This document shows, one piece after another, positions 24,408 to 27,516 of a stretch of DNA of 29,637 nt (the first letter of the stretch is position 1; every line of letters starts with the position of its first letter). The DNA is taken from the IMG/VR virus record IMGVR_UViG_3300036985_001562, positions 1-29,637 of that record; one strand, given 5' to 3'. Both the position numbers and the translations under genes were made by a program. The DNA is from a virus. The notes under the pieces were generated by a model. It was not told the DNA's origin. It searched no databases and saw nothing but the letters and a program-made list of their open reading frames with translations.

Positions 24408-24415
24408 TATATTTG
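24408..24415 (+). promoter_or_regulatory. Promoter -7 box before RNA element 1
   Basis: TATATTTG, exact -7 consensus; no TTTG at -33, where a palindrome lies instead. Transcription would start near 24420-24422, at the first stem of the RNA element. Confidence 0.6.
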
Positions 24416-24419
24416 TGTT

Positions 24420-24508
24420 GTTATTAATTGCGCTAGTAACATTAAAAGACATTAATATAATCTAAACGTTAGTAGGAGCGCAATTCCGAAAGCGTTTAGA
24501 TTTTTTTT
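24420..24508 (+). ncRNA. Structured RNA element 1: kissing-loop pair, outer helix followed by U-tract
   Basis: Hairpin 1: stem GTTATTA/TAGTAAC (24420-24426, 24434-24440) with 7-nt loop ATTGCGC. Hairpin 2: ATTAA/TTAAT (24441-24445, 24452-24456). Outer helix: AATCTAAACG/CGTTTAGATT (24459-24468, 24493-24502), enclosing hairpin 3: GGA/TCC with 7-nt loop GCGCAAT (24478-24484). Loops 1 and 3 are perfect complements, so a kissing interaction of 7 bp is possible. Eight T (24501-24508) follow the outer helix, as in an intrinsic terminator, and the homing endonuclease ATG is at 24512. The architecture recurs at 26506-26599. It may be an attenuator, a short sRNA of about 88 nt, or a cis regulator. I do not recognise the family. 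Confidence 0.7.
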
Positions 24509-24511
24509 ATT

Positions 24512-25021
24512 ATGGAAATTTGGAAAGATATACCTGATTATAAAGCACTATATCAGGTTAGTAATTTAGGAAACGTTAAGACTTTAGAAAAGGTTGTTTT
24601 GAGGAATAATAAATATCCTTTTGTATCAAAAGAGAAAAACTTAAAGCAAAGAGTAAGTAGAAACGGATATAGTCTTACAACGCTTATTAAGGACAAAAAA
24701 GCAGTAACATATTCAACGCATAAGTTAGTAGCAATGGCTTTTTTAAATCATAATTCATCTTCTCGTTTTTTAGTTGTTAATCATATGAATAAAGTTAGAA
24801 ATGACAATAGACTTGAAAATTTAGAAATAATAAGCCAAAGACAAAATTGCTTTTTTAAAACCGAAAAAAGTACAAGTAAATATGTTGGTGTTTATTTAAG
24901 AAATGACAACAATAAATGGTCTGCTCAAATTACGGCAAACGGCAAACAAAAAACGCTCGGCAGTTTCTCAAATGAAATAGACGCTCATTACGCTTATCAA
25001 AATGCACTTTTAAATTTATAA
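24512..25021 (+). CDS. Free-standing homing endonuclease, NUMOD4-HNH-AP2
   Basis: 169 aa. NUMOD4 motif at the start (E-I-W-K-D-I-P-D-Y, then Y-Q-V-S-N-L-G-N-V-K-T), HNH core with His70, Asn90-His91 and Asn99/Asn103 (V-V-N-H-M-N-K-V-R-N-D-N-R-L-E-N-L-E), and an AP2-type DNA-binding domain from about 120 (Y-V-G-V-Y-L-R...W-S-A-Q-I...K-T-L-G-S-F). All three parts look intact. Such genes spread by cutting cognate loci lacking them. It is inserted between the SSB-like gene and the NinB-like gene (2-bp gap), with its own promoter and RNA leader. There is no sign of an intron around it. Confidence 0.9.
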   Translation: MEIWKDIPDYKALYQVSNLGNVKTLEKVVLRNNKYPFVSKEKNLKQRVSRNGYSLTTLIKDKKAVTYSTHKLVAMAFLNHNSSSRFLVVNHMNKVRNDNRLENLEIISQRQNCFFKTEKSTSKYVGVYLRNDNNKWSAQITANGKQKTLGSFSNEIDAHYAYQNALLNL

Positions 25022-25023
25022 CA

Positions 25024-25455
25024 ATGCGAGTAGAAGTAACAACCTCAATATCCAACGGAATATTTAACCGTAACAGAAACACCGTTTTAAGCGCAATAAA
25101 ATCATTCGAGGGTAAAGAGGTTGTTATAACTATTGATAAGGTTAAAAAGCAACGTAGCATCCAACAAAACAGATATTATTGGGGTTTGCTAGTTCCATTA
25201 ATGCAACAGGGAGCAAAAGATACTTGGGGAGAAACTTGGAGCATCGACAAAGCACATAAACACCTTTCTAAACTATTTGTCTTTCACGAAAGCATTAACG
25301 AAAAAAACGGTTTAATTACTCAAACACCAAAATCAACAACGGAATTAACTACAACGGATTGGGAAGTTTACACAACTGAAATTAGAATTTACTTATTGCA
25401 GGACTTTGATATAAATGCTCCTGAACCTAATGAACATTTAACTTTAAGATTATGA
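25024..25455 (+). CDS. NinB-like recombination protein
   Basis: 143 aa. The layout N-R-N-T-V-L-S-A-I-K-S-F-E-G-K-E-V-V-I-T-I, then K-Q-R-S-I-Q-Q-N-R-Y-Y-W-G-L-L and S-T-T-E-L-T-T-T-D-W-E-V-Y (about 108-120) fits the NinB family (lambda Orf), which binds single-stranded DNA and helps load annealing proteins in phage recombination. Its neighbours (ERF, SSB-like, RusA) agree. The stop overlaps the next small gene as ATGA. Confidence 0.75.
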   Translation: MRVEVTTSISNGIFNRNRNTVLSAIKSFEGKEVVITIDKVKKQRSIQQNRYYWGLLVPLMQQGAKDTWGETWSIDKAHKHLSKLFVFHESINEKNGLITQTPKSTTELTTTDWEVYTTEIRIYLLQDFDINAPEPNEHLTLRL

Positions 25456-25598
25456 CAGTAGATGTTTATGCGTTTCACAAAAAAGGATTGAAGCCAACTA
25501 TAAAAAAAACAATGTCTTATGGTGAGTTTTATAAATTAAAAAGCAAAGATTATTATTATAGAGCGTATGCTCTTGGATTTAACACAACGATTTTATGA
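25452..25598 (+). CDS. 48-aa basic protein between NinB and RusA
   Basis: Basic and Tyr-rich product (M-S-Y-G-E-F-Y-K-L-K-S-K-D-Y-Y-Y-R-A-Y). The start and stop form ATGA overlaps with the genes on both sides (25452-25455 and 25595-25598), so it occupies the whole 139-bp gap. That arrangement makes translation likely. Function unknown. Confidence 0.7.
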   Translation: MTVDVYAFHKKGLKPTIKKTMSYGEFYKLKSKDYYYRAYALGFNTTIL

Positions 25599-25918
25599 TT
25601 GAAATACCAATCAAACCACTATCAGTAAACGAAGCCTTTAAAGGTAGGCGTTTTAAAACACAAAAATACGACACGTTCATTAAGTCAATGCTTTTAATTC
25701 TGCCTAAAATAATTTTACCACAAGCGCCATATTCAATGGATATTGTTTTAGGGTATAGTAGCAGAGCAAGTGATATAGATAACGGTTTAAAATCGCTGTT
25801 AGATTGTCTAGTTAAAAAATACGGTTTTGATGACAGGGAAATTTACCAAATGAATGTAAAAAAGGAAATCGTAAAAAAAGGAAGCGAGTTTATAAAGTTC
25901 AAAATTAATAGCCTGTGA
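25595..25918 (+). CDS. rusA: RusA-family Holliday junction resolvase
   Basis: 107 aa. N-terminus P-I-K-P-L-S-V-N-E-A-F-K-G-R-R-F as in RusA, then the metal-binding core S-D-I-D-N-G-L-K-S-L-L-D with Asp60, Asp62 and Asp70, followed by D-D near 79-80 and a closing basic K-K. RusA dimers cut Holliday junctions and resolve branched phage DNA before packaging. The size is normal for the family and all acidic residues are present. Overlaps both neighbours by 4 bp. Confidence 0.9.
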   Translation: MIEIPIKPLSVNEAFKGRRFKTQKYDTFIKSMLLILPKIILPQAPYSMDIVLGYSSRASDIDNGLKSLLDCLVKKYGFDDREIYQMNVKKEIVKKGSEFIKFKINSL

Positions 25919-26196
25919 ATACCTATTCAACTTCCGATGGTACACGATTTACACAAAGTCAAATCGAGCGTAAAATTACACAAGCCAAAGCCAAAGCATT
26001 AGAAAAACAATTTGATGAATACCAATATAATTTTTGTGAGGACTGCGGAATATCGCAAGGCACTTATTTAGATTGTTCACACGAAATTTCAGTTAAGAAA
26101 GCAAAAGAGGAAGGCAAAACAGAGCAATGCTGGAACGTTGGAAACATTATAATCCGTTGCAGAAATTGCCATCAAAAACACGACAAATTAATTTAA
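25915..26196 (+). CDS. Small zinc-binding HNH-like protein (NinG/HNH type)
   Basis: 93 aa starting with GTG at 25915, which overlaps the RusA stop (GTGA). The C-terminal half has C-E-D-C at 41-44, D-C-S-H-E at 53-57, N-V-G-N-I-I-I near 74-80 and C-R-N-C-H-Q-K-H at 82-89: the CxxC / SH / N / CxxCH order of small HNH nucleases. The first 40 residues are a basic helix. Its place after RusA recalls the lambda nin region, where NinG is a recombination nuclease. Nuclease activity is inferred. Confidence 0.7.
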   Translation: MNTYSTSDGTRFTQSQIERKITQAKAKALEKQFDEYQYNFCEDCGISQGTYLDCSHEISVKKAKEEGKTEQCWNVGNIIIRCRNCHQKHDKLI

Positions 26197-26205
26197 AATA
26201 CTAAA

Positions 26206-26463
26206 ATGAAAAACGCAATCGATAAACCATACTCACTAAAAGAGATTTCAGCTATTCACAATATTTCTATTGATACTTTAAAATATAGATGTGTTAAGCG
26301 TAAATTAAGACCAACTGTATTGAATGGTACGTTTAAATACAATTTAAGCTATAACGAAATGATTTCAATATTAAATAGCGACAGTAAAGTATATTTAACA
26401 CCCGATATAATTTATGTTCATACAACTTGGCTTGTATTAGAAAGTAAAATGAATAAAAAATAA
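26206..26463 (+). CDS. Small helix-turn-helix protein
   Basis: 85 aa. Y-S-L-K-E-I-S-A-I-H-N-I-S-I-D-T-L-K-Y-R-C (about 9-29) is a clear HTH: helix, I-S-x-D turn, recognition helix, followed by the wing-like K-R-K-L-R-P. It resembles MerR/excisionase-like or helix-turn-helix group 17 proteins. It stands just before the promoter at 26498, whose activity it could control. Regulator or replication accessory; unproven. Confidence 0.65.
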   Translation: MKNAIDKPYSLKEISAIHNISIDTLKYRCVKRKLRPTVLNGTFKYNLSYNEMISILNSDSKVYLTPDIIYVHTTWLVLESKMNKK

Positions 26464-26497
26464 ATATTAAAAATTAGTTTATTTTATAATAATTTTG

Positions 26498-26505
26498 TAT
26501 ATTTG
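26498..26505 (+). promoter_or_regulatory. Promoter -7 box before RNA element 2
   Basis: TATATTTG, exact -7 consensus, ends at 26505. No TTTG at -33. Predicted transcription start near 26510-26512, inside the first stem of the RNA element, as for the 24408 promoter. Confidence 0.6.
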
Positions 26506-26599
26506 TTGAAGTAGAACATCCACCTACGTTAAAGATTATAGGTTTATAGAACCTTACAACCCTTAACCAATCGGAGTGGATGCCGAGAAGTTAAGGGTT
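26506..26599 (+). ncRNA. Structured RNA element 2: same kissing-loop architecture
   Basis: Hairpin 1: TTGAAGTAG/CTACGTTAA (26506-26514, 26524-26532, one A-G mismatch) with loop containing CATCCAC (26517-26523). Hairpin 2: AGGTT/AACCT (26540-26544, 26550-26554). Outer helix: AACCCTTAAC/GTTAAGGGTT (26558-26567, 26590-26599), perfect, enclosing hairpin 3: TCGG/CCGA with loop containing GTGGATG (26576-26582), the exact complement of the loop 1 heptamer. Almost no paired sequence is shared with element 1, but all helices are preserved and a GGA-N7-YCCGA stretch is kept. No T run follows, so this copy is not an obvious terminator. A weak CGGT/ACCG hairpin follows at 26619-26634, just before the ATG at 26643. 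Confidence 0.7.
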
Positions 26600-26642
26600 A
26601 TTTAATTTAATAGTTTATCGGTAACTTAAAACCGTTATTATT

Positions 26643-26855
26643 ATGGCAAAATATGATTTAAAGTTTTTAGATGTATCAGATGATACTAAAGCAGTTGTTT
26701 ACAAACCACTTTTTAGTAATAGCATACATATTGAATTAGAAAAAAATGAAAACCGTATATTAATTCAGTTAGATAAATCCACCGCTATAAAGTTTGCTAA
26801 AACTTTGCGTACTGAAATAAACAAAATTACAGAAAGTGAGGTAAACAATGGCTAA
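26643..26855 (+). CDS. 70-aa protein heading the replication unit, unknown
   Basis: 70 aa with alternating strands (V-V-Y-K-P-L; S-I-H-I-E-L; R-I-L-I-Q-L) and a C-terminal helix (S-T-A-I-K-F-A-K-T-L-R-T-E-I-N). It is the first gene downstream of RNA element 2 and overlaps the replisome-organizer-like gene by 8 bp. Not recognised. Confidence 0.6.
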   Translation: MAKYDLKFLDVSDDTKAVVYKPLFSNSIHIELEKNENRILIQLDKSTAIKFAKTLRTEINKITESEVNNG

Positions 26856-27516
26856 AGAACTTCCATACTTTAAGTTTGAACCAGCGGAATATTTAACAAA
26901 AAACATATCATTTTGTTCGTTATCCTCTCAAGGCTTGTTTGTAAATATTTGCTCCTACTATTGGCAAAGAAACTGCTCTTTAACTAAAGAACAATTATTA
27001 AGAAGATTGAACTATGAGGTAGAATTTAATGAGTTAGTTGAAGAGGGTATTATTGACTTAATAAATGATAATATTTCTATTAAATTTTTAGATGCACAAC
27101 TAATTGATGTTGAACAAAAAAGCTCTACTAATTCAGTTAATGGAAGTAAAGGTGGTAGACCTAAAAAAAACCCAACTCAAACCGAAATAAAACCGAACGC
27201 TTTTAAAAATGAAACCCAACCTATAAGCGAAACGAAAGGCATAAGAGAAGATAAAAGTAGAGAACAAGAAATAAAAGAATTAATAGATAAAAAGAAAGAA
27301 GATTTTGTCGAGGCTATAAAGCCTCATAAACAAAATTTTAATTCTAAAATGTTAAATGATTTCTATGAATATTGGACTGAAACAAAACCAAATAGCAAAC
27401 TAATACGCTGGGAACGTGAAAAGGCTTTTGATATGGCAAGACGTTTAGATTATTGGAGTAGAAATGATGGTAAATTTTCTAATAATAAACAACCTTTAAA
27501 AGTAGAAAGACTATGA
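26848..27516 (+). CDS. Replisome organizer / DUF4373-like replication initiator
   Basis: 222 aa. The N-terminal about 90 residues (Y-F-K-F-E-P-A-E-Y-L-T, then F-V-N-I-C-S-Y-Y-W-Q-R-N-C-S-L-T-K-E-Q-L-L) fit the winged-helix N-domain of phage replisome organizers (DUF4373-type). A basic, Lys/Pro-rich linker with G-G-R-P-K-K at about 99-104 follows, then a helical C-terminal part (F-Y-E-Y-W-T-E-T). These proteins bind the origin and recruit helicase. Its neighbours, including a RepA-like ATPase, fit a replication module. No obvious iterated repeats for an origin were seen. Confidence 0.65.
   Translation: MAKELPYFKFEPAEYLTKNISFCSLSSQGLFVNICSYYWQRNCSLTKEQLLRRLNYEVEFNELVEEGIIDLINDNISIKFLDAQLIDVEQKSSTNSVNGSKGGRPKKNPTQTEIKPNAFKNETQPISETKGIREDKSREQEIKELIDKKKEDFVEAIKPHKQNFNSKMLNDFYEYWTETKPNSKLIRWEREKAFDMARRLDYWSRNDGKFSNNKQPLKVERL

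Follow-up and report, generated by a model that had tools for sequence, protein, structure and literature searches.

Little is known of regulatory RNAs in the phages of the Bacteroidota, a major phylum in soils, waters and guts. The virus record IMGVR_UViG_3300036985_001562, analysed here over its whole length of 29,637 nucleotides (nt) and called the window below, carries on its plus strand two copies of a structured element of about 90 nt, in which the loop of a 5' hairpin is complementary to the loop of a second, terminator-like hairpin; about 100 further examples were found in flavobacterial phages. Phage regulatory leaders as a kind are already known, and the element is rated as a new RNA family among them. 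The system closest in logic, though different in fold, is the put RNA of phage HK022, which is an RNA of about 70 nt on the early transcript, putL lying just after the promoter. Base pairing in put begins near +1 (at A3), the fold has two stem-loops with a tertiary contact inside the RNA, and no phage protein is required (PMC9378689); put occurs as two copies per phage (putL/putR), and neither a kissing loop nor a hairpin ended by a U-tract is described for it in the available part of this source. A put RNA is further characterised by a V shape of its two stem-loops with a minor-groove triplex, by contacts with the beta' zinc domain and by suppression of downstream termination or pausing. Like put, the flavobacterial element stands close to where an early transcript begins, as judged from a +1 predicted from the promoter box, hairpin 1 starting no more than 3 nt from it in 82 of 88 elements; unlike put, it belongs to other hosts and another promoter type, is present in many copies and occurs with homing endonucleases.

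Attenuators built on intrinsic terminators share with the element the order of promoter, structured leader, terminator-like helix with U-tract and gene, but in the element the hairpin at the 5' end engages the loop of the terminator, and neither an antiterminator helix nor a leader peptide is apparent by eye. In the T4 family, a structured RNA stands directly before the homing endonuclease genes I-TevI, segB, mobE and seg43(25), that of seg43(25) being a stable hairpin just upstream of the ribosome site which does not cover it; these hairpins are simple, and most of them sequester the ribosome-binding site and are bypassed by a late promoter (PMC2988022). In the flavobacterial element, by contrast, the promoter comes before the structure, the fold includes a kissing helix, and many of the copies stand in front of early genes other than endonucleases. 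A translational hairpin of the T4 type was rejected, because the promoter lies upstream of the whole structure and the start codon lies outside the helix, 9-20 nt downstream. STAXI (RF01728) resembles the element as a pseudoknot RNA with repeated occurrence close to genes for SSB, recombination and mobile elements (PMC2864571), but it consists of tandem repeated pseudoknots of Enterobacteriales, and the element has no Rfam match to it, nor to Flavo-1 (RF01705), which is likewise an RNA motif of Bacteroidota. None of the 4227 models of Rfam 15 reached its gathering score over the element, the best relaxed match over copy 1 being 23S-methyl (E = 3), and no description was found in the open-access literature, which agrees with an earlier reading of the window from its sequence alone that had called the element undescribed-looking.

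A kissing helix conserved in flavobacterial phages

Megablast gave no close phage, and distant blastn with copy 1 gave chance matches only. BLAST with copy 2 matched Flavobacterium phage FCL-2 (75% identity) and, by way of the 50 nt that follow, many flavobacterial phages, and it also pointed to a conserved hairpin downstream of the element; the loci so matched have the same architecture, mostly in wholly different letters. IMG/VR loci were fetched under the guidance of proteins, mostly a 70-amino-acid (70-aa) protein encoded after copy 2 or replication proteins, and were then scanned with a structure descriptor. At a score of at least 40, about 60 distinct elements were recognised in the fetched loci, which amount to 1.69 Mb, whereas dinucleotide-shuffled sequence (404 kb) contained none. 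Two covariance models, R1 and R2, raised the count to 117 unique matches; both exclude the loop-loop pairs, R2 was partly built from misaligned, loop-swapped members, and their E-values rest on short calibrations. Reverse-strand matches of R2, mostly without kissing complementarity, were discarded, and a pattern scan with the downstream hairpin yielded contigs that were mostly chance (11 covariance-model matches at E <= 1, 80 loci scanned). Among cultured phages the element occurs in FCL-2, morran, filifjonk, mumin (the last three with Flavobacterium sp. LMO6/LMO9 as hosts), Cellulophaga phi19:1 and phi18:3 and Olleya Harreka_1, and metagenomic contigs without host assignment carry it as well. 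A homologue of the 70-aa gene or of its leader was not found in the GTDB genomes.

A perfect complement of 7-10 nt between the two loop regions is present in 95 of the 117 matches, compared with 12% when the 5' and 3' halves of different elements are combined and 10% for shuffles, and the matches without it are mostly on the reverse strand. An alignment of 18 sequences (A2) shows 99.3% pairing in the kissing helix, six of whose eight pairs have double changes; the whole structure is 97.2% paired against 35-42% in slid controls, and none of 500 shuffles reaches the observed covariation score. Parsing gave 88 unique elements, reduced to 59 representatives with 52 different kissing sequences, and the positions of every helix show up to all four Watson-Crick types. 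The parse demands an exact kissing complement, so the independent evidence comes from the covariance-model matches and alignment A2. The structure of the element is near certain. The sequence-only reading had staked its proposal on related phages having homologues with the same pairing, and many of them do, with very strong covariation.

The kissing pairs include GTACGAC/GTCGTAC in phi19:1, GTGGTGG/CCACCAC in Harreka_1, CATCCAC/GTGGATG in FCL-2, GTGAGAAG/CTTCTCAC in morran, GTGGAACG in mumin and CTTCTGAC/GTCAGAAG in phi18:3. The flanks of the loops travel with the kissing strand: AA[GTGAGAAG] and [CTTCTCAC]AAYATA trade places between hairpin 1 and hairpin 3, the exchanged types being 'AA[purine-rich]' and '[pyrimidine-rich]AAYATA', which suggests a shared loop-loop geometry. 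A few copies before endonucleases seem to contain G-U within the kissing helix. Loop sequences differ among the copies of one phage in all 11 multi-copy loci; the four elements of the phage locus L177 (6284, 8308, 9636 and 13467) have four different kissing sequences, and the genes that they precede are Erf, an HNH endonuclease, the 70-aa gene and a 57-aa gene. Avoidance of cross-kissing in such phages was considered and is not claimed, because unrelated elements differ in any case.

In the window, copy 1 extends over 24408-24508 and copy 2 over 26498-26607. The helices, loops and 7-nt complements (ATTGCGC/GCGCAAT, which can be extended to 9 nt, and CATCCAC/GTGGATG) were given correctly by the sequence-only reading, apart from its hairpin 2 and a small shift of coordinates. 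It had each element begin at a TATATTTG box; the boxes are real, but the starts of 24420 and 26506 lie just past them. Its covariation in four helices stands for hairpin 1, hairpin 3 with the outer helix and the kissing helix, but not for hairpin 2, which is not a shared helix: the corresponding part of copy 1 is the conserved linker TTAAAAGACATTAAT, while that of copy 2, as in FCL-2, is an extra hairpin AGGTTtatagAACCT. In addition, the motif GGA-N7-YCCGA, which had been read as kept in an unpaired context, actually consists of the inner hairpin and, after it, the 3' strand of a purine internal loop; this loop is AGUA/GAA in copy 1 and CAA/GAA in copy 2. Independently, ViennaRNA (z = -2.1 and -3.8) recovers the outer helix together with the inner hairpin for each copy, and for copy 2 hairpin 1 as well; hairpin 1 of copy 1 is not in the fold, the folded stretch having begun at 24422 and thus cut the hairpin's first bases. 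Copy 1 is matched by the covariance model at E = 2e-7, and copy 2, which carries the inserted hairpin and is missed with the filters on, only with filters off (28.8 bits, E = 6.6e-5, 26490-26609, in a 601-bp stretch). A MAFFT alignment of the two copies alone fails, and a looser descriptor is only modestly specific within the window, with 0.65 chance matches per shuffled window, so that the proof comes from the homologues.

Anatomy of the leader and the genes behind it

In the parsed elements, hairpin 1 has a median of 6 base pairs (bp) and a loop of 10, the kissing helix has a mode of 8, the linker a median of 17 nt with the motif AAARAHATTWTA, the outer helix a median of 11 bp and the inner stem 4 bp; the RNA from +1 to the helix end has a median length of 90 nt. 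The outer helix is separated from the inner stem by a purine internal loop of the type AGUA/GAA(A), or of the types UGAA/GGAU, UGAU/UGAU, GGA/GAA and AA/GA, and these classes interchange. Only the A-rich linker and the interchangeable purine internal loops are conserved, with no invariant nucleotide core beyond the linker. The AGUA/GAA(A) loop presumably resembles the bulged-G (loop E/sarcin-ricin) motif. The promoter is predicted to be a sigma-A-type Bacteroidota box TAnnTTTG, and the A/T profile upstream of the elements agrees with that of flavobacterial promoters, in which the -7 box occupies -12 to -5 (PMC6847099). In several phages, a terminator-like hairpin closes the unit upstream of the element. 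At the 3' end, 5.7 of the 8 nt past the outer helix are T (71%), as compared with 30% T upstream of other starts, and so a stable hairpin with a U-tract stands between the predicted promoter and the gene, as in attenuators. G-U makes up 11% of the outer-helix pairs, which argues for RNA and not DNA.

The window has its structural genes, including terminase, on the minus strand and early genes on the plus strand (Erf recombinase, DUF3127 SSB-like, NinB-like, RusA-like and replication). Copy 1 is separated by 3 nt from a NUMOD4-HNH-AP2 homing endonuclease gene, and copy 2 precedes the 70-aa gene, which is followed by a replication/primosomal-like gene (26848-27516). Elsewhere, too, the elements occupy the gap that separates a stop codon from the following start codon of the same strand, often directly after the preceding stop, and nearly all that have sequence after them are followed by a co-directional ATG 9-55 nt downstream; the earlier claim that the two copies of the window lead plus-strand units holds. 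From the helix end to ATG there are 9-26 nt where the gene is a homing endonuclease, a replication gene, Erf, a helicase or a small gene; for the 70-aa gene, before which a further hairpin is found, the distance is about 41-54 nt. The genes led are early genes for replication and recombination and many free-standing homing endonucleases; their proportions are biased, because most elements were fetched through the 70-aa or replication gene, but placement is the same for the additional copies within those loci and for the elements fetched independently through the endonuclease protein.

Twelve of 34 distinct upstream regions of homing endonucleases pass the 99% shuffle threshold, compared with 20 of 1500 for other genes, and about four more have the element by eye, being short or having G-U in the kissing helix. 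Furthermore, endonuclease and element are jointly absent at three junctions (filifjonk vs mumin, L155 vs the window, L160 vs L128), which fits a cassette of promoter, RNA and endonuclease, the alternative being independent gain. If so, mobile genes can bring their own RNA regulator, as this joint presence and absence suggests.

Variant leaders occur before endonucleases. Those at L104 1999-2092 and L128 3976-4056 are shorter, with hairpin 1 of about 3 bp or absent, and keep the terminator-like helix and a long-range pairing (CCGCCAAG/CTTGGCGG; TCGCTACAA/TTGTAGCGA). Upstream of the HNH start in L215, L221 and L225, a long-range pairing of 12-15 nt (e.g. GCAATGTTAAATACT/GGTGTTTAACATTGC) replaces the short kissing helix. 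About 120 nt before the HNH start of L206 is the core TTAGTAGG-CTGTACT-CCGAAAG, as in window copy 1, with the kissing pair AGTACAGC/GCTGTACT and no TATATTTG box in the stretch shown.

Possible modes of action

The element is a promoter-proximal, cis-acting leader that ends like a terminator and keeps its tertiary fold in evolution, and it is independent of the gene behind it. That this family of ~90-nt 5' leader RNAs controls early transcription elongation is about an even proposition, and the same balance applies to the two forms of control favoured jointly, a kissing-clamped conditional or partial terminator (attenuator) and a put-like RNA acting on the polymerase. Transcription would start at the TAnnTTTG promoter, and the first nucleotides of the transcript would fold into hairpin 1, followed by the A-rich linker and the long hairpin with its purine internal loop and inner stem, whose loop would pair over 7-9 bp with the loop of hairpin 1; the U-tract and the start codon of the early gene would come next. 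The nascent RNA would thus close the kissing clamp as the polymerase arrives at the terminator-like hairpin, and the clamp may set how often the polymerase passes into the gene, either as an attenuator or by put-like action. In the stretches listed there is no TAnnTTTG box between element and gene, so expression presumably needs readthrough, and this, together with the lack of an exclusive antiterminator helix, favours a conditional terminator or put-like RNA. Because it is independent of the gene, the element may serve as a portable expression head, which is employed again and again for genes of replication and recombination and travels along with homing endonucleases. A bolder version, in which a self-contained RNA class acts on the Bacteroidota RNA polymerase, the nascent clamp at +1 causing readthrough of its own and later terminators, and has spread with homing endonucleases as such an expression head, is rather doubtful.

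Several points weigh against control of elongation. The +1 is deduced from the box; inspection of the listed elements by eye, which was not exhaustive, revealed neither a leader peptide nor an antiterminator pairing incompatible with the terminator helix, and hence no sign of a classical switch; unless much of the transcription reads through, it is odd for a terminator to stand 9-20 nt ahead of its own gene; and the U-rich stretch before the start could serve translation instead. A rival explanation is a 5'-end stabiliser of mRNA and/or a translation leader, in which the 5' end is buried in hairpin 1, the kissing fold blocks 5' decay and the U-rich single strand admits the ribosome, an explanation that is unlikely but deserves serious attention. 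Hairpin 1 begins at or next to the predicted +1, the element is gene-independent and stands 9-20 nt ahead of many gene starts, and flavobacteria have no Shine-Dalgarno and tune initiation by mRNA structure, although starts in F. johnsoniae prefer A, not U (PMC6847099). However, a simple hairpin would be enough for this purpose, and the helix-plus-U-tract signature, retained even where the start codon is 40-50 nt off (the 70-aa gene class), would be left unexplained. The own promoter, compact fold and terminator-like 3' end with U-tract would also suit a free small RNA (sRNA) of about 90 nt acting in trans, with the downstream gene a mere neighbour expressed by leak-through, and sRNAs with such ends are common. 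This is distinctly unlikely, since the element points in the direction of the next gene and lies close to it, the listed stretches between the two have no TAnnTTTG box, the loops differ between the copies of one phage, and the element is gained or lost along with homing endonucleases. The roles proposed by the sequence-only reading (put-like antitermination leader, attenuator, mRNA stabiliser or trans-acting sRNA) are therefore narrowed to a cis-acting leader, the choice among leader roles being left undecided.

A ligand-binding riboswitch, with a pocket built from the kissing fold, the A-rich linker and the purine internal loop that controls the terminator, would account for a compact tertiary architecture at a terminator and for two exchangeable classes of internal loop (AGUA/GAA and tandem purine), but the same switching of classes, the lack of an invariant core beyond the linker and downstream genes without a common metabolic theme make it improbable. 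Complementary loops on one RNA permit, in principle, pairing of loop 1 with loop 3 of another molecule, as in phi29 pRNA or ROOL, and ornate RNAs that form homo-oligomers exist (PMC12286853). Such an oligomer is very improbable, as there are several copies per phage with mutually different loops in replication and homing gene leaders, and not one packaging RNA gene, and the linker length seems compatible with pairing inside one molecule; a single packaging RNA like phi29 pRNA was rejected on the same grounds. Least credible is a signal at the DNA level, an origin or recombination site folding as single-stranded DNA: several copies adjoin replication and recombination genes, but the G-U pairs of the outer helix, the strand-specific promoter and T-tract, and the occurrence of the element before homing endonucleases at several early-region places stand against it.

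If the favoured control of elongation is true, the element would show how early genes may be timed in these phages without a known antiterminator, and it would count among the few instances in nature where a kissing loop holds a terminator hairpin. Moreover, this compact and strongly covarying family is present in cultured phages, so its function is directly testable.

Features of the window and minor observations

The features of both copies are collected in Table 1.

Table 1. Coordinates of the two kissing-loop leaders and associated features in the window
Feature	Position	Strand	Basis or remark
Copy 1 -7 promoter box TATATTTG	24408-24415	+	predicted +1 at 24420; upstream A/T profile and box-to-start spacing from PMC6847099
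Copy 1 hairpin 1 (GTTA...TAAC), predicted 5' end	24420-24440	+	loop has kissing strand ATTGCGC, 24427-24433
Copy 1 A-rich linker TTAAAAGACATTAAT, conserved	24442-24456	+	linker conservation over 59 representatives
Copy 1 terminator-like hairpin	24459-24502	+	outer helix 24459-24470/24491-24502, internal loop AGTA/GAA, inner GGA/TCC stem
Copy 1 kissing strand GCGCAAT in terminator-like hairpin	24478-24484	+	complements ATTGCGC 24427-24433
Copy 1 U-tract TTTTTTTT	24501-24508	+	
Gene led by copy 1: NUMOD4-HNH-AP2 homing endonuclease, 169 aa	24512-25021	+	Pfam NUMOD4 1.1e-11, PHROG HNH 9e-26
Copy 2 -7 promoter box TATATTTG	26498-26505	+	predicted +1 at 26510; same basis as copy 1 box
Copy 2 hairpin 1 (GTAG...CTAC)	26511-26527	+	loop has kissing strand CATCCAC, 26517-26523
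Copy 2 linker with TTAAAGATTATA motif and extra small hairpin AGGTTtatagAACCT (26540-26554)	26528-26557	+	extra hairpin present in FCL-2 too
Copy 2 terminator-like hairpin	26558-26599	+	outer helix 26558-26567/26590-26599, internal loop CAA/GAA, inner TCGG/CCGA stem
Copy 2 kissing strand GTGGATG in terminator-like hairpin	26576-26582	+	complements CATCCAC 26517-26523
Copy 2 U-rich tail ATTTAATT	26600-26607	+	
Separate conserved hairpin CGG-TAACTTAAAA-CCG, outside the kissing element	26619-26634	+	immediately precedes the start codon of the 70-aa gene
Gene led by copy 2: 70-aa protein, no assigned function	26643-26855	+	followed by the replication/primosomal-like gene 26848-27516; PHROG 33177 and 29280/9327

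The small hairpin between copy 2 and the 70-aa gene, which had no Rfam match in the search of the window, recurs about 50 nt upstream of the 70-aa gene in L096-L174, L003, L005 and L002. Its consensus is N3-TAWCTTAAAA-N3', with the stems CGG/CCG, CCG/CGG, AGG/CCT and CAG/CTG and the start codon TTATTATTATG next to it, and it has the look of a translational operator. In the 70-aa protein the middle varies, and the C-terminal helix (LDKSTAIKFAKTLRTEINKI) is almost invariant; the AlphaFold2 model of the protein (pLDDT, the predicted local distance difference test, 75) consists of strands followed by a long helix and has no significant fold match in the PDB, the likeness to a Pur-alpha repeat being weak (E = 2.3). 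Another RNA, DUF805b (RF02914), the only Rfam family reported for L003, was found well above its gathering score in the early region of phage morran9-1 (L003, 12838-12872).

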